A DNA stretch of 64,000 nucleotides from Bryobacterales bacterium (GTDB lineage: Bacteria > Acidobacteriota > Terriglobia > Bryobacterales > UBA6623). Position 1 is the first letter of the stretch. Each line of letters starts with the position of its first letter. The position numbers and the translations under genes are program-made. The notes beneath the pieces were generated by a model. That model searched no databases. It had not been told where the DNA came from and worked only from the letters and a program-made list of their open reading frames with translations. The DNA lies in contig JAPPMB010000164.1 of NCBI GenBank assembly GCA_028819255.1, forward strand, positions 70,109-134,108. Direction: 5' to 3'. This document shows, piece by piece, positions 30,285 through 38,333 of the stretch.

Positions 30285-31277
30285 ATGATACCTAGGCTCG
30301 GCTCCCTCTTGGCGGGAGCACTGTTTGCTGTTGCCCTTCCCGTACAGGCCGCCGACCGCTATTCCGTGCGGTCGCCCGTGCTCGGCTACGTGCTCGATCA
30401 GGAGACCGGTTCTCTCCACCGCCTCGACGGCATTCCGGGTGCTTCCTGGGTGGGCGAGGCAATCGACCTGAACCTCGTTGTCACGCGCGCCGACTTCGCA
30501 CCGACGCAAGGCTACGCGATCATTCGGGACGAGGAGGGCCGGACCCTCTTTGTGGACCTGACCGTCGAGGCCCCGACAGCTGTGCCGATCAAGGATGCGC
30601 TGGACGGGGCGTCCGGCGTTGTCATCAGCCCGTCGGCCCGCCGGGCGGCGATCTATTCGACCGAAGCCGGACGGATCCAGCTCCTTGACGGCCTGCCCGG
30701 CGTCCCCGTGGTCGGAGAGACGCTCCAGCTCGTGAAGGGCGTCGGCACCTGGTCGGCTTTCGCGATCAGCGACGAAGGAGTGATTCTGGCTGCAGCCACC
30801 AGGCCGCCGGGCGGCTCGCTCCACATGATGCGGGCCGGACACTCCACTGTGCGCATCGGGCCGGTGCAGCGCGCCGGAGAACTTGCATTTCTTGCCGGCA
30901 CCAATGACGCCGTTGTGACGGACACGGCCGCCAGCGAGATCGTGCTGTATCGCGACGTGGTCGTCAGGCGCCAGTCCATGGTGATCGCGTCGTCGAACGA
31001 TGGCGTGAAGAACCCGTTCGGAGCGAAGCCGACGGGCGACGGCCGCTTCGTGGCGGTCGGCCTGAGGGGCGGCATCGCCTCGGTCCCCTTGCAGGGCGGA
31101 GTGGCGGTGTTCACCGAGTGCGCCTGCGCCACGACATCCCTCGCGTCCCTGGCGGGCGGCAACGTCTTCCGGCTCACGGACGACCTCGGCGAACCGATCC
31201 AGATCGCCGAGGTCAGTGCGGAACCTCGCGTGCTCTTCGTCCCGGCGCTTCAGCGCGATAGCGATTCGGCCCAGTAG
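30285..31277 (+). CDS. Secreted beta-propeller-like protein, unknown function
   Basis: A 330-residue exported protein; signal peptide at residues 1-22 (LGSLLAGALFAVALPVQAA). Two segments repeat the same pattern: VLDQETGSLHRLDGIPGASWVGEAI and STEAGRIQLLDGLPGVPVVGETL, and further blades show VVISPSARRAAIYS, AFAISDEGVILAAA and DGRFVAVGLRGGIA. Repeated four-stranded units of this type suggest a beta-propeller. A single CAC pair (ECACATT) occurs late. Family and ligand unknown. AGGA lies 10 bases before the ATG. Monocistronic: it is divergent from mqnA, and the next gene has its own promoter-like site. Confidence 0.7.
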   Translation: MIPRLGSLLAGALFAVALPVQAADRYSVRSPVLGYVLDQETGSLHRLDGIPGASWVGEAIDLNLVVTRADFAPTQGYAIIRDEEGRTLFVDLTVEAPTAVPIKDALDGASGVVISPSARRAAIYSTEAGRIQLLDGLPGVPVVGETLQLVKGVGTWSAFAISDEGVILAAATRPPGGSLHMMRAGHSTVRIGPVQRAGELAFLAGTNDAVVTDTAASEIVLYRDVVVRRQSMVIASSNDGVKNPFGAKPTGDGRFVAVGLRGGIASVPLQGGVAVFTECACATTSLASLAGGNVFRLTDDLGEPIQIAEVSAEPRVLFVPALQRDSDSAQ

Positions 31278-32155: not shown

Positions 32156-33586
32156 CAATACTGATAACTTAATGGCCTGCGACTGCTAAACTGGTGTGTG
32201 CTGCTAGAGCAGCGGAGGACACGCCATGGCCAGAACTCGAGCCGTTCTACCTGGAGGGGCGCGGCTGTCAGACTACTTGAGCGTGGGGGTCATCGCCAAG
32301 GTGTTCCCGTTGCGTGCCGTGCGGGCAGCGCTGCGGGAGTGCGGACGTGCCAGCCAGCGGAGGCGGGCGCTGCCGGCGGAAGCGATGGTGTACTACGTGA
32401 TCGCGATGAGCTTGTTCCGTGCGGCGGCGACGCGCGAGGTGCTGCGCTGTCTGGCGGACGGGTTGCGCTGGACGCGGAGCGGAGCCGGGCTGCGGATCGC
32501 GAGCAAGGTGGCGATTTCCCGGGCGCGGACGCGCTTGGGCCGCAAGCCCCTGCGCGGGCTGCGGCGGCGCTGCGTGCGGGTGCTGGCGGAGGCGGGCACG
32601 CGCGGGGCCTGGTATCGCGGGCTGCGGCTGCTGGCCTACGACGGGACGACGCTGGACGTGCCCGACGAGCGGCGCAACCGGGAGCAGTTCGGGCTGCCCG
32701 GGGCGGGGCGCGGGAAGGCGGCCTTTCCCAAGCTGCGGGTGACGGCGCTGGTCGAACTGGGGACGCGGGCCGCGTTTGCCTGGGAGTACGGGCCGTACCG
32801 GGAGTCGGAGAGGAAGCAGGCGGAGCGCCTGCACCGGCATTTGGAAGCCGGCATGCTCCTGCTGGCCGACCGCGGCTATCTCGGGGTCGCGTTGTGGCGG
32901 TCCGCCGTGCGCACCGGGGCCGACCTGCTGTGGCGGGTCAAGTGCGACACGGTGCTGCCGCTGCGGCAGGTGCTGCCGGACGGCTCCTACTTGAGCGAGT
33001 TCGGCGGGCTCACCGCGCGGGTGGTCGAATACACTATCCCCGAGAGCGACGAGCCGTCTTACCGCCTGCTGACGACCCGGCTCGACCCGCTCCAGGCCCC
33101 GGCCGCCGAACTCGCCGCGCTGTATCACGAGCGCTGGGAGATCGAGAGCACCTACGACGAGATCAAGACCCACCTGCTGGGCCGCCACCCGATCCTGCGC
33201 AGCAAGACGCCGCCACTGGTCCGCCAGGAGGTCGAAGGCCTGATGCTGGCCCACTATGCCGTGCGGCATTTCCTGCACGAGGCGGCGCAGCAGGCGGACG
33301 ATGACCCTGACCGCCTGTCCTTCACCCACGCAGTGCAGGTGATTCGGCGCCGGATCCGGAATCCCGGCGCTTTCCCCCGCTGCGCATCGTCCGCGCAGGC
33401 TGCGGCAGGCCGTCCAGCACGAGATCCTTGAGGAACGGGCCGAATCGAGCCGGGGCCAGAGCAAGCCCCGTGGTGTGAAACGGAAGATGAGCAACTACAG
33501 GGTCCGACATCGCGGACCCCTGGCGTGCGAGGTCCATGCTTGGAAGCCACAAATTGTCATCCATGACTTCTAAATGAACAGTATTG
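32156..33586 (+). mobile_element. IS4-family insertion sequence
   Basis: A 1,431-base element bounded by imperfect inverted repeats: left CAATACTGATAACTTA (32156-32171) and right end, read inwards, CAATACTGTTCATTTA (13 of 16 identical). It is flanked by a near-perfect 10-base duplication. It carries one transposase gene, now frameshifted, preceded by TAAACT (32187-32192) and a hairpin with the arms GCTGCT/AGCAGC just before the ribosome site GGAGG, a layout that often limits translation from outside transcripts. Codon use is more extreme in GC than the neighbours, as expected of recently acquired DNA. Confidence 0.85.
32226..33573 (+). pseudogene. IS4-family transposase, frameshifted
   Basis: Reads as 401 residues to a stop at 33431. 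Residues 10-110 match the IS4 N-terminal domain (LSDYLSVGVIAKVFPLRAV). DDE residues: D139 (LLAYDGTTLDV), D215 (LLADRGYLGVALW), E307 in YHERWEIESTYDEIK, which is the YREK signature (Y300, R303, E307, K314). After RNPGAFP the frame goes astray; removing one base in the run of five C at 33374-33378 restores RPRRLRQAVQHEILEERA, then GVKRKMSN and IHDF with a stop at 33571-33573. The IS therefore lost its C-terminal tail to a 1-base insertion and is probably inactive, or the shift is a sequencing error. Confidence 0.85.
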
Positions 33587-33596
33587 CCGCTAGACC
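33587..33596 (+). repeat. Right target-site duplication of IS4 element
   Basis: CCGCTAGACC immediately after the right inverted repeat end (33586). Differs from the left copy at one base (A for C), which indicates either a substitution since insertion or imperfect initial duplication. Confidence 0.7.
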
Positions 33597-33695
33597 GGCC
33601 TTCCCGGCGATTAGTGGGATCTGATCCGTCCTGGCGGATCCCGGCGTTGACCGCGGCCATTCTCTCGCCGGCCCGGCCGTTGGTCGGCGCAAGCG

Positions 33696-34616
33696 TCACC
33701 GTCGGAGACCGGAGACCTCGAAGTGGCCGACTCCGAAGATCCCGGGGATTTCGAACGCCAGCGGCCCGACCTCCCTGCGGTAGACCTCCGCGAGGTCCGA
33801 CATCGCGACGTTCTCCACGACGTCGAGCCCTCCGGCCGCCATCAGGGACCCCATCCTGTCCAGCGAGTAGTCGGCTCGCATTGGCTCGCCTCGCTTGTCC
33901 ACGAAGTCCATGAGGCGCCGGCGAACCTGAAGGTCCCGCTGGCGTGAGGAAGCGGTGTCCAGCAGGTAGTCGAGCACGAGACGTGTTCCGGGCGCCATTC
34001 CGTCCGCAAGGGATCGGGCCGTGGACTCGAGTGTGGCGGGCGTCAGGTAGTATGCGACGCCGAGCAGGGAACAGAAGGACGGCAGCGAGCGGTCAAACGG
34101 GGAGGAGGCGAGCGCGGCGAGGGGCGAAGTCTGCGACAGATCCGCGGGGACGAAATGATGATTCGTCGAAACCTCCAGCCCCGCTCTGGCGATGCGCTGA
34201 AGCTTCTTGCGCTGGGTGACGGGGTGATCGATCTCGAAGACGCTGATCCGCTCTAGGATGTCGGGCTTTCGGAATGCGAAGGAGTCCATTCCTGCGCCGA
34301 TGATGACGTACTGCCGGACGCCATCCGCGACGGACTGCTCGAGGGCCTCCTCCGCGAACCGCGCACGCATGACCACGCACATGGTCACCGGATGGAGCGG
34401 TCGCAGGTACACGTCGAAGAGCAGCCACTTCAGGGGTGGAAAGACCAGGGCCAAGCCGAGCAACCGACCGCAGAGGCGGTGGGCGAAAGGATCGTCCGCA
34501 ATGGGATTCGCACGCTCTCTGTGGAGTGCGCGTGCCGCCGCAACGAGGTCCGCGGTCGAGACGGTGTGAACAGGGAGAGCCACGCTGCTGTAGTCCGAAG
34601 GAACCTCCTGCTCCAA
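33696..34616 (-). CDS. SAM-dependent O-methyltransferase, Ppm1/LCMT-like
   Basis: A 306-residue methyltransferase of the leucine-carboxyl-methyltransferase-like family (TIGR00027 type). Marks: ALHRERANPIADDPFAHRL, QYVIIGAGMDSFAFRKP (SAM motif I), VFEIDHPVTQRKK (acidic ribose ligand), YYLTPATLESTARSL. Substrates of this bacterial group are unknown, usually secondary metabolites. TTG start at 34616, supported by the family-typical opening residues and the promoter-like site just upstream. A 122-base spacer separates it from the IS element. Confidence 0.88.
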   Translation of the reverse strand: MEQEVPSDYSSVALPVHTVSTADLVAAARALHRERANPIADDPFAHRLCGRLLGLALVFPPLKWLLFDVYLRPLHPVTMCVVMRARFAEEALEQSVADGVRQYVIIGAGMDSFAFRKPDILERISVFEIDHPVTQRKKLQRIARAGLEVSTNHHFVPADLSQTSPLAALASSPFDRSLPSFCSLLGVAYYLTPATLESTARSLADGMAPGTRLVLDYLLDTASSRQRDLQVRRRLMDFVDKRGEPMRADYSLDRMGSLMAAGGLDVVENVAMSDLAEVYRREVGPLAFEIPGIFGVGHFEVSGLRR

Positions 34617-34755: not shown

Positions 34756-36972
34756 CTACCGGGCTGCGTCCCGGTCCTGCCAGGCCTCCAGGGAGCTTTC
34801 CAGCCACTCGATCGATTCGTTCTCGTGGCATGCGAGGCAGGCGTTCGGGCTTTCCTCCCGCCCGAAGCGGGCTGTCATCCCGGCGTCCGGTATGTCGTCG
34901 ATCCTGTGCGTGCCGGCCAGGAACATCATGCTGTTCATGATCTTCGGCATGTGGCAGGACACGCACTGGCTGGCCTCGGAGCCGTCCGCGTGCCGGGTGT
35001 GTGCCTCCGGATCCTCTGCGAGCGACTCGTGGCACTGCAGGCACATCCGGTTCGGCTCGTTCCTGTGCTTGAGGGAGGTCGGATTGGTCGCGCTGTCCGC
35101 CGGGTGGGGGTCGTGGCAGTGCCCGCAGTGCGCCTGGCCGCGGCGGAAGCACTCCGTTCTCATGAACGACTCGGCGATGAATGTGGTTTCCCGGAACCGT
35201 CCGTCCTTGTAGAATGCCGTGCGCGAGTACTCCTCGTAGGGGCGCTGCTCCCGCTGGTTGAGGAACGATTCCTGTCTGCCCGAGTAGTTGATCTCACCTC
35301 GCGGGCCGGTCTCGACGATTCCCGACTGCATGTGGCACTGCGCACAGACGCTGACGTACGAGCGATGGTCCAGCTCCCCGAATCGCAGCGGCGGATCTGT
35401 CGCCTCCGGCATCTCGGTGTTTCCGGCGCGCATTGCGGTCTCGTGGGCGCGCGAGGGGCCGTGACACATCTCGCAGTTGATGCCGGCCTCGCGGTAGGTG
35501 ATGCGCTCCGCAGCGACGAGCGATCCCTCCGCCTGCACTTGGCTCGTGTGGCACGGCGAGCAGTGCACCTGGTAGCTCGTGGAGAGCCTCATCCGATGGA
35601 AGTCCCGGAGGCGCGACCGCTCGGACGGTCCGTCGTCCAGCTCCTCCCAGAAGTTGACCCACTTGCGGTGGAGAACGTTGTACTGGATCGGAACCACGTG
35701 GATTTGCCCGTTGGGCAGTCGGGTTGCGTATGCCTGCTGCCACTTGGACCCGATCGTGTAGTCCACCGGGAACCGCTGCGTTCCCTCGCCCGTCGGCAGC
35801 TCGAAGTAATGTCGGTCGCCGTCAATGAGCATGCGGGCAAGCAGGTCTCCGGCTGGATCACGGAACTCGACGTCGCGCTGGAAGTCGCCAATCACGTTCT
35901 CAAAGCCGTACGGGCGGAACATTTTCGCCATCCCCGTGTTCGACCAGGCGTCAAAGACCTGTTCGTGGCAGTCGCGGCAGCCCTCGCTCCCCGCATATGA
36001 TCCCGGGGGATCCAGCGCAGGGCGATCTGGCCCGGTTCCAGCCTGAGCCTTGACTCGAAGCGGCCGGATCCCGGCCCGAAACTCCTTTAGGGAACTGCGA
36101 ATCTCGCCGCCGTCTCTGAATGCCTCCTGCAGCTTGGCCAGAGCGCTGGCCTGGACGGGACCCGGCACTCGCGCCGCCGCTTCGAAGGCTGAAAGGGCCT
36201 CGCCACTGTTCCCCAGGGCCTCTTCGACGATGCCCAGGAGCAGAAGGGCGATGCCGTCTCTCCGGTTCAGGCGAATCGAGCTCCGCAGGGACTCCCGGGC
36301 CGGCACGAGCATCGCCGGCGTCTCAGCCGCGGGGGCCCGAAAGGCCCTTGTCGCTGCCACACGCCCAAGCACAAAGTGTGCCGAAGCCCGCAGTTCGCGC
36401 CCGATCCGCTCCCATTCGGACTTCGTGTAGAGAGACGGGTGCCGGAATCTCCCGAGGTAGGCGAGCGCGTCGGCTGCGTTTCGCTCGGCCTCCTCGAGCA
36501 GCCCCTCGAGCACCTGCACGTTCGCCAGCGCGACCAGCAGCGTGCCGTTCTCGGGCAGAATCCGGATCGATCTCCTGCCGTGCTCCAGCCCGGCCTGCAG
36601 ATCGTCCAGGGCTATGCAGGCCTTCGCTGCCATCGAGTGCGCGAATGCTACGAGCCAGGACTTCGGAAAGCGCTCGAGGAATGCCTCGGCCAACGCCCGC
36701 TTCCGCGCCGGGTCCGTGGTCTCCCTCAGCTCCACGAATGCGTCGCGCTCCTCGGGATCCTCAATCTGGTCGATCACCGAACGCTTCTCCGGGTCTCCCG
36801 CGTAGAGAACGAGGTCGAGGTCCTGGCCGGAACACAAGGCGACGCTCCAGAAAACGGTCAGAGCAAGGAGCAAGAAGCGGGTCCTTGCGTTGCCGCGGAC
36901 CAGTCGGCCGCCAAGGGCCGCAAGCGGTCCGAGCGGCGAAGCCTCCGGCTTCCTGACTGTCGTGACCGTCAC
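34756..36972 (-). CDS. Eight-heme cytochrome c with N-terminal TPR domain
   Basis: A 738-residue exported protein. Signal anchor near residues 30-48 (ARTRFLLLALTVFWSVAL). Residues about 50-280 are helical TPR-like repeats (GLEHGRRSIRILPENGTLLVALANVQVLEGLLEEAERNAADAL and others). From about residue 325 on there are eight CxxCH sites: CRDCH, CSPCH, CEMCH, CAQCH, CGHCH, CLQCH, CVSCH, CLACH, embedded in a cytochrome c554-like setting (GSEGCRDCHEQVFDAW). The hemes point to periplasmic electron transfer. The GTG start overlaps the sulfatase stop by 4 bases (GTGA), so the two are translationally coupled; no enzyme domain apart from the hemes is seen. Confidence 0.88.
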   Translation of the reverse strand: MTVTTVRKPEASPLGPLAALGGRLVRGNARTRFLLLALTVFWSVALCSGQDLDLVLYAGDPEKRSVIDQIEDPEERDAFVELRETTDPARKRALAEAFLERFPKSWLVAFAHSMAAKACIALDDLQAGLEHGRRSIRILPENGTLLVALANVQVLEGLLEEAERNAADALAYLGRFRHPSLYTKSEWERIGRELRASAHFVLGRVAATRAFRAPAAETPAMLVPARESLRSSIRLNRRDGIALLLLGIVEEALGNSGEALSAFEAAARVPGPVQASALAKLQEAFRDGGEIRSSLKEFRAGIRPLRVKAQAGTGPDRPALDPPGSYAGSEGCRDCHEQVFDAWSNTGMAKMFRPYGFENVIGDFQRDVEFRDPAGDLLARMLIDGDRHYFELPTGEGTQRFPVDYTIGSKWQQAYATRLPNGQIHVVPIQYNVLHRKWVNFWEELDDGPSERSRLRDFHRMRLSTSYQVHCSPCHTSQVQAEGSLVAAERITYREAGINCEMCHGPSRAHETAMRAGNTEMPEATDPPLRFGELDHRSYVSVCAQCHMQSGIVETGPRGEINYSGRQESFLNQREQRPYEEYSRTAFYKDGRFRETTFIAESFMRTECFRRGQAHCGHCHDPHPADSATNPTSLKHRNEPNRMCLQCHESLAEDPEAHTRHADGSEASQCVSCHMPKIMNSMMFLAGTHRIDDIPDAGMTARFGREESPNACLACHENESIEWLESSLEAWQDRDAAR

Positions 36973-38333
36973 TTCCTGTGCTTTGCCATCGGTGCTTCGA
37001 CGGCCTCAAGATAGCTGCCCAGCCGCCCGGAAAGGCGCTGCGCGATCTCGGGATTCTCGGCGCTGAGGTCCCTGGTCTCGCCAACGTCGCTCGCCAAGTC
37101 GAAGAGACGGGACTCTCCGGACTCGTAGAGTCTCACCAGCTTCCAGTTTCCGATGCGGATCGAGGACATCGGGGTTGTCCCCTTGAGCGTCTGGTAGTGC
37201 GGAAAATGCCAGACTAGGCCGTCAAACCGGCGTGGCAGGGGGCCTGTGCCGCCCGTCTGCAAGAGGCCCAGCAGGCTCGCACCCTCGACCTCGGAGGAAA
37301 GTTCGGCCTGAACCCGCACCATCGCCGCGACTGTCGGATAGAGGTCCGTGCCCGTGACCGGAACGGAGCTTGTGCTTCCAGCCTCGATTCCGGGGCCCCG
37401 CACCAGCATGGGCACCCGAATGCCGCCCTCCCACGTCGATGCCTTCTGGCCCCTCAAAGGCGCGTTCGTGGAGATCACGTTTCTGCCCTGATCGTGGTAG
37501 GAGCCGTTGTCGGAGGTGAAGATCACGTACGTGTCTTCGGTGAGGCCGAGACTTTCAAGCGAGTCCAGAATCCGGCCAACACCCGCATCGAGTTCGTGCG
37601 TCATGGCGGCGTGGGCGGCGTGCTTGTGGCGCTCGCCCTTCGGTTTCGCCTCGAATTCCCTCACAGTCTCTTCAAAGGCGAACACCCCAAGATGGACAGC
37701 ATAGTAGGAGACCTGCAGGAAGAACGGCTCTCCGGCCTCTTTGCGGTGGCGCAGAAAGTCCACGGCACGCGTCGTGACGCTGACCGTGCGTTTCGGGTCG
37801 GGCGCGCGCGAGCCTCCCTCCCGGTTCGAGGTGGGCCCGCTGTGGTCGTCGTAGCCGTGTCTGCCGGGGCCGCCGCCCCCAAGATGCCACTTGCCGAAGT
37901 GAGCGGTGACGTATCCCGGCCGGTGCATCTTGATGAGCTCGGCAACCGTCGTCTCCTCGTGCGGGATATGGTCGATGTGCTGCGGCGGAATCATCGGCAG
38001 CCCCTCGTAGAACTGCCCGCTGCCGCGATTGATGATGTCGGTCATCTTCAGCTGGGCCGGAGACTTTCCCGTCTGGATGGCGAGCCTCGTGGGCGAGCAG
38101 TTCGGGTGCGGTGCGTAGGCGTCGGTGAAGCGCATGCCTTCCGCTGCGAGACGCTCCAGGGCGGGGGTGTAGTGGTAGTCCGACTTCGAGTCCGGGCGGG
38201 TGGGATCCATTTGCACCGAGGTGCCCACCCAGCTCATGTCGTCGGCCAGGATGAGCACGACGTTCGGCTGGGCTGCAGCCGACAGGGCCAGGACGGACGC
38301 GACGATGACGGGCAGCAAGCGGCAGAGGGCCAT
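36969..38333 (-). CDS. Sulfatase (type I, formylglycine)
   Basis: A 454-residue exported sulfatase. Signal peptide 1-22 (LLPVIVASVLALSAAAQ), metal-binding ILADDMSW (D31, D32), and the Cys-type formylglycine motif NCSPTR with C79 followed by LAIQTGK. Further metal and sulfate ligands appear in WHLGGGG and FTSDNGSYHDQG. It should remove sulfate esters from glycans or other substrates and needs a formylglycine-generating enzyme encoded elsewhere. AAGAAT sits 8 bases before the ATG with no ribosome site. Confidence 0.93.
   Translation of the reverse strand: MALCRLLPVIVASVLALSAAAQPNVVLILADDMSWVGTSVQMDPTRPDSKSDYHYTPALERLAAEGMRFTDAYAPHPNCSPTRLAIQTGKSPAQLKMTDIINRGSGQFYEGLPMIPPQHIDHIPHEETTVAELIKMHRPGYVTAHFGKWHLGGGGPGRHGYDDHSGPTSNREGGSRAPDPKRTVSVTTRAVDFLRHRKEAGEPFFLQVSYYAVHLGVFAFEETVREFEAKPKGERHKHAAHAAMTHELDAGVGRILDSLESLGLTEDTYVIFTSDNGSYHDQGRNVISTNAPLRGQKASTWEGGIRVPMLVRGPGIEAGSTSSVPVTGTDLYPTVAAMVRVQAELSSEVEGASLLGLLQTGGTGPLPRRFDGLVWHFPHYQTLKGTTPMSSIRIGNWKLVRLYESGESRLFDLASDVGETRDLSAENPEIAQRLSGRLGSYLEAVEAPMAKHRK

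Follow-up and report, generated by a model that had tools for sequence, protein, structure and literature searches.

A sulfatase gene overlapping the gene of an octaheme TPR cytochrome: a genus-conserved pair in Bryobacterales

On the minus strand of the window, a 64,000-nucleotide stretch of DNA from a Bryobacterales bacterium, the end of a sulfatase gene overlaps the start of a multiheme cytochrome gene. Multiheme cytochromes are usually treated under metal, nitrogen or sulfur respiration and polysaccharide-degradation genes under carbon use, and the locus raises the question of what joins the two. Sulfate-ester hydrolysis is redox-neutral, the sulfatase yielding sulfate and not sulfite; the pair is therefore not one redox enzyme, and the link would lie in co-regulation or in electron disposal. 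The genes are laid out as follows:

36969..38333, minus strand: S1 sulfatase gene (454 aa, ATG at 38333; PF00884)
34756..36972, minus strand: octaheme TPR cytochrome gene (738 aa, GTG start)
36969..36972, minus strand: GTGA overlap, cytochrome GTG over sulfatase TGA (kept in 8/10 pairs)

The overlap described in a first-pass annotation of this DNA is confirmed by the open reading frames, which place the sulfatase stop TGA at 36971-36969 and the cytochrome start GTG at 36972-36970, and by the orthologous pairs. Its length is exactly 4 bases in eight of ten pairs, the deviant values being +4 in genome G254 and -31 in genome G251 (first possible start taken). Since the overlap is retained in 8/10 pairs, a chance GTG start codon is ruled out. 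The same geometry favours the annotation's further claim that the two products are made together; judged from the sequence, the two genes may be transcribed as one operon.

The first product matches PF00884 with an E value of 4.5e-47, has an apparent N-terminal signal peptide (judged by eye) and carries the catalytic motif of its class:

38085..38099, minus strand: formylglycine site CSPTR, residues 79-83 (alignment; identical in 12/12 orthologs)

The PF00884 domain and the CxPxR motif together identify an S1 (type I, formylglycine) sulfatase, and the metal ligands DD...DN and the substrate Lys/His, located by alignment to 9FO1, are likewise kept in 12/12 orthologs. This best solved relative (PDB 9FO1, E 9e-77) is AMOR_S1_16A, a kappa-carrageenan sulfatase from a Bryobacteraceae MAG, whose Trp79 is given as conserved in S1_16 in the available part of the source (PMC11760155). 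Both proteins share the formylglycine motif and the metal- and sulfate-binding residues, but the Trp conserved in SulfAtlas subfamily S1_16 (W79 of AMOR_S1_16A) is Ile in the window sulfatase and in 12/12 orthologs, so its substrate may differ from that of AMOR_S1_16A. The enzyme would be secreted and would desulfate a galactose/GalNAc-type or other sulfated sugar. Its genome holds at least 154 PF00884 matches, a lower bound with 150 of 227 candidates scored.

The second product contains exactly eight CXXCH motifs and no CXXCK, in agreement with the eight hemes annotated earlier. The TPR half, also annotated earlier, is borne out by a TPR solenoid in the predicted structure, with Pfam giving TPR matches below cut-off only (TPR_16, 17.9 versus 32.7 bits). 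PF13435 (cytochrome c554) matches with E 4.5e-7 (31.2 bits, cut-off 20.8), a signal peptide is apparent near residues 30-50 (judged by eye), and a Pfam scan at E 0.01 found no PSCyt or PSD domains. The parts of the protein are:

36067..36777, minus strand: TPR half, residues ~66-302 (structure model and TPR fold matches)
34756..36021, minus strand: eight-heme half with predicted OcwA-like fold, residues 318-738 (model; profile matches 6I5B, 6QVM)
35965..35979, minus strand: heme motif 1, CRDCH, residue 332 (this and all following heme motifs by motif and alignment)
35653..35922, minus strand: beta-sheet insertion between hemes 1 and 2, residues ~351-440 (secondary structure of models)
35548..35562, minus strand: heme motif 2, CSPCH, residue 471
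35461..35475, minus strand: heme motif 3, CEMCH, residue 500
35332..35346, minus strand: heme motif 4, CAQCH, residue 543
35113..35127, minus strand: heme motif 5, CGHCH, residue 616
35029..35043, minus strand: heme motif 6, CLQCH, residue 644
34951..34965, minus strand: heme motif 7, CVSCH, residue 670
34825..34839, minus strand: heme motif 8, CLACH, residue 712

Heme 2 (CSPCH) is expected, by analogy with c554, OcwA and MccA, to be the five-coordinate heme. All eight motifs are invariant across 46 aligned eight-heme homologs, an alignment without duplicates, partial sequences and seven-heme homologs (L028, L030-L033, L101 and others), and the cytochrome is thus under constraint. Only five further His are invariant in these 46 sequences, for eight hemes, and the conserved non-heme residues comprise one Cys (C608) and one Lys (K410). 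In an 18-row alignment with some of the left-out homologs, His510, 623 and 689 are invariant, His658 and His661 are not, and heme 8 is absent from homologs L031 and L032.

The closest predicted fold of the heme half is that of OcwA, within the NrfA/c554/MccA superfamily. The match (Foldseek E 1.3e-9 with a TM of 0.53 relative to the query; VIA Z of 14.5 over 330 aligned residues at rmsd 4.5 A) is to a heme-free model of mean pLDDT 72, which like the heme-free model that shows the TPR solenoid (mean pLDDT 73) is of middling confidence. NrfA appears in the fold list at Z 4.2 and the octaheme nitrite reductases at Z 3.5, both weak matches, and membership of NrfA is ruled out by the absence of CXXCK. 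Hydroxylamine oxidoreductase is not among the fold matches listed, which excludes nothing. The tetraheme cytochrome c554 (PDB 1BVB/1FT5) shares PF13435 and a sequence match around hemes 2-3, while the window cytochrome has twice as many hemes plus the TPR half; the earlier label "c554 type" thus holds at the level of the superfamily and gives way to OcwA below it.

OcwA (PDB 6I5B; PMC6703420, available part), the outer cell-wall cytochrome with nine hemes from Thermincola potens, has in common with the window cytochrome the predicted heme-half fold, c554-like first hemes, the order of its last four hemes and an extra beta-sheet domain, which MccA is also described as carrying (PMC6703420). The window protein differs in its eight CXXCH motifs instead of nine hemes, its N-terminal TPR half, its acidobacterial host and its coupled sulfatase, and the order of motifs suggests that the eight-heme protein lacks an equivalent of heme 5, the second active heme of OcwA. 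OcwA is reported to reduce nitrite and to both reduce and oxidise hydroxylamine (PMC6703420), an activity that favours a terminal reductase in the periplasm or outside the cell, which like OcwA would hand the electrons of respiration on to Fe(III), to humics or to nitrogen oxides, with the sulfatase as no more than its transcriptional host. We regard such a reductase as distinctly improbable, given the apparent loss of OcwA heme 5, the several glycan-type genes among the family neighbours probed and the donor side: a search of the genome for a quinol dehydrogenase of the CymA/NrfH type (PF03264) gave no match, the E. coli control being positive. This negative result speaks against the electron-transfer explanation as well.

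Redox-linked handling of sulfur compounds, another role suggested in the first pass, is weakly favoured by a superfamily that includes MccA, and would take the form of an MccA-type enzyme with a substrate that contains sulfur and is formed downstream of the sulfatase. MccA is the third-best fold, with a profile match of E 5e-7 over the whole chain and no single significant stretch; its heme number is equal, OcwA heme 5 is missing by motif order, the beta-sheet insertion is present, and C608 and K410 are conserved. These points are set against a Z of 6.7, middling on the tool's own yardstick, and against a sulfatase product that is sulfate and not sulfite. MccA moreover uses two Cys for copper, where a single spare Cys is conserved here. 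MccA/SirA octaheme sulfite reductase (PDB 4RKM) is defined by an atypical CX12-15CH heme motif, as stated in the available part of PMC6976685, whereas all eight motifs of the window cytochrome, which also has a TPR half, are CXXCH. The missing motif rules out membership of MccA/SirA, and a sulfur-redox enzyme of this type is very unlikely.

The pair is present in 10/11 same-genus genomes and intact in 10/10 that possess the cytochrome, and the paired cytochromes form one clade (support 100/100) of single origin. A sulfatase ortholog stands without the cytochrome in the eleventh genome, G255, and in G241 of a sister genus. On gain versus loss of the cytochrome in G255, two trees point different ways: the RpoBC tree has G255 as first-branching in the genus (90/91), and a tree of locus genes groups it with G256 (72/61). 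The whole neighbourhood is syntenic across the genus, and the IlvD-threonine synthase junction is intact wherever judgeable (8/8 in the genus, plus G241); the intact pair is therefore not independent evidence of joint function. By neighbourhood reading, the junctions on either side are less constant than that of the pair: threonine synthase and sulfatase are adjacent in 7/10 genus genomes (2.5 kb is inserted in two; in one, no threonine synthase lies in the 2.1 kb to the contig end), and the cytochrome-hydratase junction is present in four of nine assessable genomes.

General synteny and the abundance of sulfatases (at least 154 matches) favour passive hitch-hiking: the cytochrome gene would have landed behind one of many sulfatases, taken its promoter and been kept by synteny, the two products being unrelated. 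The sulfatases retained without a cytochrome in G255 and G241 also fit this serious rival, which we hold to be less than even but well worth weighing. Against it stands the junction itself: it is intact in all ten pairs and keeps the exact overlap in eight of them, even though insertions or losses have disrupted its neighbours on both sides.

Other cytochromes of the genome bear on the same point. Ten multiheme or c554-type cytochrome genes were counted (C35 and C160 by Pfam match only), and three have a sulfatase neighbour, the other seven being judged against the sulfatase matches listed; three such neighbours exceed chance weakly (a post hoc test, with a Poisson tail of 0.4-5% when 0.3-0.8 are expected by rough estimate). 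Besides the overlapping pair, two 7-heme cytochromes adjoin a sulfatase, C74 with ~0.7 kb between the genes and C130. Of 29 family loci, the remaining 27 showed neither adjacency (sulfatases sought over ~1.5 kb or as far as the contig reached), a pattern that favours hitch-hiking and for which recurrent sulfatase-multiheme pairing was rejected as a functional sign.

Beyond the genus, a sulfatase lies within 8 kb at 1/37 other cytochrome-family loci and in 1/20 control stretches, which rules out the sulfatase as a general partner of the family. The pairing is real and conserved within the genus, and was not found as a rule outside it. Two observations speak against joint function, namely the lack of sulfatase enrichment beside the wider family and the sulfatases kept without a cytochrome.

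What does accompany the family, in Bryobacterales and other Acidobacteriota, are FG-GAP/UnbV-ASPIC proteins (which we take to be those named CRTAC), TonB-type receptors and a second multiheme cytochrome, sometimes with fucosidases or PSCyt genes. UnbV/FG-GAP genes occur at 20/37 loci (0/20 control stretches), TonB-type receptors at 22/37 (4/20), PSCyt genes at 7/37 (0/20) and fucosidase genes at 6/37 (0/20), all lower bounds, with neighbours found by a few tblastn probes (E 1e-8) and a crude choice of ORFs. The 37 loci include seven genus paralogs of near-identical context and seven loci of named MAGs; without the genus paralogs, UnbV stands at 14/30 and the receptors at 15/30. Controls were one arbitrary stretch per genome (n=20; four are shorter than 6 kb and a fifth measures 7 kb) and sum to 260 kb, against 521 kb of case loci. 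At the 20 of 37 loci that could be paired with a control stretch of the same genome, UnbV was found at 11 (one-sided p 7e-5), receptors at 10 (p 0.048), and PSCyt and fucosidase genes at four each (p 0.053 each, marginal), tests that are optimistic because the loci are mutually related. Pfam confirms a single fucosidase gene at each of L082, L093 and L026, and those at L083, L096 and L025, as well as second copies, are tblastn calls.

The reading that we tentatively favour, with a probability of roughly 45%, is a two-gene operon with coupled translation, in which a sulfatase is co-expressed with a periplasmic electron-transfer cytochrome of a glycan-locus family. The cytochrome would be a secreted OcwA-like octaheme protein with a TPR docking half; its family would move electrons, either within the periplasm or at the outer membrane, in the service of loci for glycan uptake or oxidation, with heme 2 perhaps binding a substrate. 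Once, in one genus, a copy would have come to follow a sulfatase gene and its control, which would tie the expression of electron-transfer capacity to the use of the sulfated glycan in question. The electron outlet for a feeder on sulfated substrates, as first proposed, fits the number of sulfatase matches and the family context, and is still a matter of inference. A bolder version, which we consider unlikely, sees in the OcwA-like TPR cytochrome family, taken together with its UnbV/FG-GAP partners and its TonB-type receptors, a redox module dedicated to acidobacterial glycan loci that is here wired to a sulfatase, desulfation and the disposal of electrons from the released sugar (or substrate reduction at heme 2) forming one TPR-docked unit.

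A precedent comes from Verrucomicrobia, where sulfatase genes were reported in the vicinity of genes for planctomycete-specific cytochromes (PSCyt), an arrangement that is likewise unexplained (PMC5615132). These loci resemble the window pair as recurrent sulfatase-cytochrome neighbourhoods in glycan degraders; PSCyt proteins are however another family than the multiheme OcwA-like TPR cytochromes, and the available part of that paper describes no overlapping pair. Among the papers listed in the library searched, taken at the level of titles and abstract openings, none describes the sulfatase-cytochrome pair; this level also applies to several papers that combine sulfatase and cytochrome terms or concern an animal-associated acidobacterium (for example PMC12175321, PMC8841776 and PMC5573963). 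No description came from the available parts of a Solibacter paper (PMC3174227) or a marine Acidobacteriota paper (PMC8528874). A conserved putative sulfatase-cytochrome operon, together with the family's tie to TonB-type receptor/UnbV loci, would offer a testable entry to the question of why glycan-degrading Acidobacteriota hold so many multiheme cytochromes.

The sulfatase gene and the octaheme TPR cytochrome gene were located by reading their open reading frames:

38333 (ATG) to 36971–36969 (TGA), minus strand, sulfatase gene
36972–36970 (GTG start), minus strand, cytochrome gene

These coordinates bear out the overlap between the cytochrome GTG and the sulfatase TGA that the first-pass annotation had described, and the eight hemes claimed there correspond to exactly eight CXXCH motifs. 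The overlap measures exactly four bases in eight of the ten orthologous pairs, G254 being at +4 and G251 at −31 when measured from the first possible start. As far as sequence tells, the pair is arranged as a coupled operon would be, has one origin and persists through a genus.

Of the 257 genomes of the order, 56 gave a cytochrome match at E ≤ 1e-60. A close ortholog is present in ten of the 11 genomes of the genus, and each of the ten carries the sulfatase immediately upstream of it in the same orientation. Sulfatase orthologs (at least 73% identity) were found in 12 of the 257 genomes, namely all 11 of the genus and G241 of a sister genus; two further matches, in G251 and G254, represent paralogs (51–52%). 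The adjacency sought in related genomes therefore holds in 10/11 of the genus and fails in G255 and G241, where the sulfatase stands alone. In G255, the enoyl-CoA hydratase gene follows the sulfatase after approximately 220 bases, with no cytochrome match across the 17 kb read, and in G241 the sulfatase adjoins threonine synthase without a cytochrome. The sulfatase locus thus predates the cytochrome or, at the least, is independent of it. Furthermore, the whole neighbourhood is syntenic (MqnC, an unknown gene, enoyl-CoA hydratase, cytochrome, sulfatase, threonine synthase, IlvD and more), so the retention of the pair is partly due to general synteny. The IlvD-threonine synthase junction is as constant as the pair (8/8 assessable in the genus, from our own reading and the window), and these two genes show no sign of mutual coupling here. 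The sulfatase-cytochrome junction, intact in 10/10, is steadier than both flanking junctions: that between threonine synthase and sulfatase is intact in 7/10, G249 and G252 having an insertion of about 2.5 kb there and G247 showing no threonine synthase in the 2.1 kb up to its contig end, and that between cytochrome and hydratase in 4/9. At the latter position the window carries an IS4-family transposase and a TIGR00027 methyltransferase (32226–34616), for which the four relatives with the direct adjacency have no space. A 330-aa protein encoded nearby (30285–31277) has counterparts at the locus in seven relatives of the genus (45–58% identity) and no Pfam or NCBIfam match at E 0.01.

In the cytochrome tree, the ten sulfatase-paired proteins form one clade (support 100/100) whose neighbour is a sulfatase-less homolog from a different genus of the family (94/88); a further copy, unpaired and present in seven genomes of the genus, branches separately. 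Two UnbV/FG-GAP genes and a TonB-type receptor lie within 8 kb of this second octaheme TPR cytochrome in six of the seven (L072–L078). In a tree of RpoB and RpoC, G255 branches first in the genus (90/91), which favours gain of the cytochrome after the G255 split; in a tree of the locus genes G255 groups with G256 at weak support (72/61), which would mean a loss. Reading the rpoB/rpoC frames (L118–L123, L133, L134, L146–L152, L154) revealed a single open frame of about 2,890–2,946 aa in G247–G250, G252, G253 and G254, and in G251 as far as the contig shows; the frames are separate in the window genome, G255, G256, G246 and six genomes of other genera. One cytochrome homolog, in a gp1 acidobacterial MAG, lies in two reading frames (L028:6016–8110), possibly through a frameshift or an assembly error. 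Three MAGs labelled Bryobacterales are the named relatives of the cytochrome (57–70% identity).

The window genome (6.7 Mb, 98% complete) holds at least 154 PF00884 matches (150 of 227 candidates scored), so a sulfatase as neighbour is not rare in itself. Two 7-heme cytochromes of this genome, on contigs C74 and C130, also adjoin a sulfatase on the same strand:

L157:5389–8850, first 7-heme cytochrome beside a sulfatase
L008:661–3222 / L158:6848–8650, second 7-heme cytochrome beside a sulfatase

Among the 29 loci of the 7-heme group in the taxonomic family, a sulfatase lies within about 1.5 kb at these two alone, and none was seen at the 27 others. By our own estimate, two such adjacencies are at about chance level in a sulfatase-rich genome. 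It is mainly for this reason that passive hitch-hiking, in which the cytochrome lies beside the sulfatase by position only, stays a strong rival explanation of the pair in the window. The link may be functional or only positional. Genes identified by eye as encoding a TPR protein and a TonB-type receptor lie near the first 7-heme cytochrome; in G254 and G251 both are found again next to relatives of this cytochrome, and in G256 the receptor is.

The first gene of the pair matches the Pfam family Sulfatase, and its best solved relative is AMOR_S1_16A, described as an exo-acting kappa-carrageenan 4-O-sulfatase from a Bryobacteraceae MAG (PMC11760155). The formylglycine site, the metal ligands and the sulfate-binding Lys and His are kept in all 12 orthologs, whereas a Trp reported to be conserved in S1_16 (PMC11760155) is replaced by Ile in every one. 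The substrate is likely a carbohydrate. Due to the redox-neutral nature of sulfate-ester hydrolysis, a direct chemical link between sulfatase and cytochrome is unlikely.

The cytochrome matches Cytochrome_C554, Cytochrome_C7 and Paired_CXXCH in Pfam, and a motif search of the protein found no CXXCK and no long-spaced CH motif. Its proposed TPR half matches Pfam below the cut-off only, but appears as a clear solenoid ahead of the heme domain in the AlphaFold model (mean pLDDT 73). When the heme half was modelled alone (residues 318–738, mean pLDDT 72), the predicted fold best matched OcwA, the nonaheme outer cell-wall cytochrome of Thermincola potens (6I5B; Foldseek E 1.3e-9; Z 14.5, 4.5 Å, 330 residues), followed by the undecaheme S-layer cytochrome 6QVM (Z 9.8), with middling matches to the octaheme sulfite reductase MccA (Z 6.7) and NrfA (Z 4.2). 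A sequence profile of 18 homologs matches 6I5B (E 2e-17), 6QVM (1e-12), c554 (1e-7) and, with the whole chain only, MccA (5e-7). Membership of MccA or of NrfA was rejected, the diagnostic heme motif being absent in each case. In the profile alignment, the first three hemes align with hemes of OcwA that are c554-like, and the last four with its last four, which suggests that the missing heme is OcwA heme 5, as in MccA. All eight heme His are invariant in 46 full-length eight-heme homologs, as are His 510, 623, 658, 661 and 689, Lys410, Tyr415, Tyr467 and the spare Cys608; a wider alignment that includes partial and seven-heme members shows variation at His658 and His661. With five spare His for eight hemes, up to three hemes may have another ligand or an open site, heme 2 being the candidate by analogy with c554, OcwA and MccA (PMC6703420).

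The company of the family was assessed at 37 non-pair loci, over up to 8 kb on either side or to the contig end, against 20 arbitrarily chosen stretches, each from a different genome, and representative neighbour identities were checked with Pfam. In one-sided Fisher tests, whose p-values are optimistic because the loci are interrelated and some controls are short, UnbV/FG-GAP genes (20/37 vs 0/20, p 1e-5), TonB-type receptors (22/37 vs 4/20, p 0.004), PSCyt (7/37 vs 0/20, p 0.04) and alpha-L-fucosidase (6/37 vs 0/20, p 0.06) accompany the family, in contrast to enolase-superfamily genes (6/37 vs 3/20, p 0.61) and sulfatases (1/37 vs 1/20, p 0.88). Restricting the comparison to the 20 loci whose own genome supplied a control gives 11 for UnbV (p 7e-5), 10 for the receptor (0.048), 4 each for PSCyt and fucosidase (0.053) and 1 for sulfatase (0.76). 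Of these associations, UnbV alone is strong. The one locus with a sulfatase (L094, G026) sits in a gene run of the same kind as that of L093 (G025), in which this position holds fucosidase, one gene assigned by Pfam and a second by similarity. No description of a sulfatase-octaheme TPR cytochrome pair was found among the titles and abstract openings searched, the nearest published theme found being that of sulfatase genes close to PSCyt genes in Verrucomicrobia (PMC5615132). The cytochromes of this family appear to form an electron-transfer module belonging to glycan-related loci; the copy in the window would be one that came to lie under a sulfatase gene.
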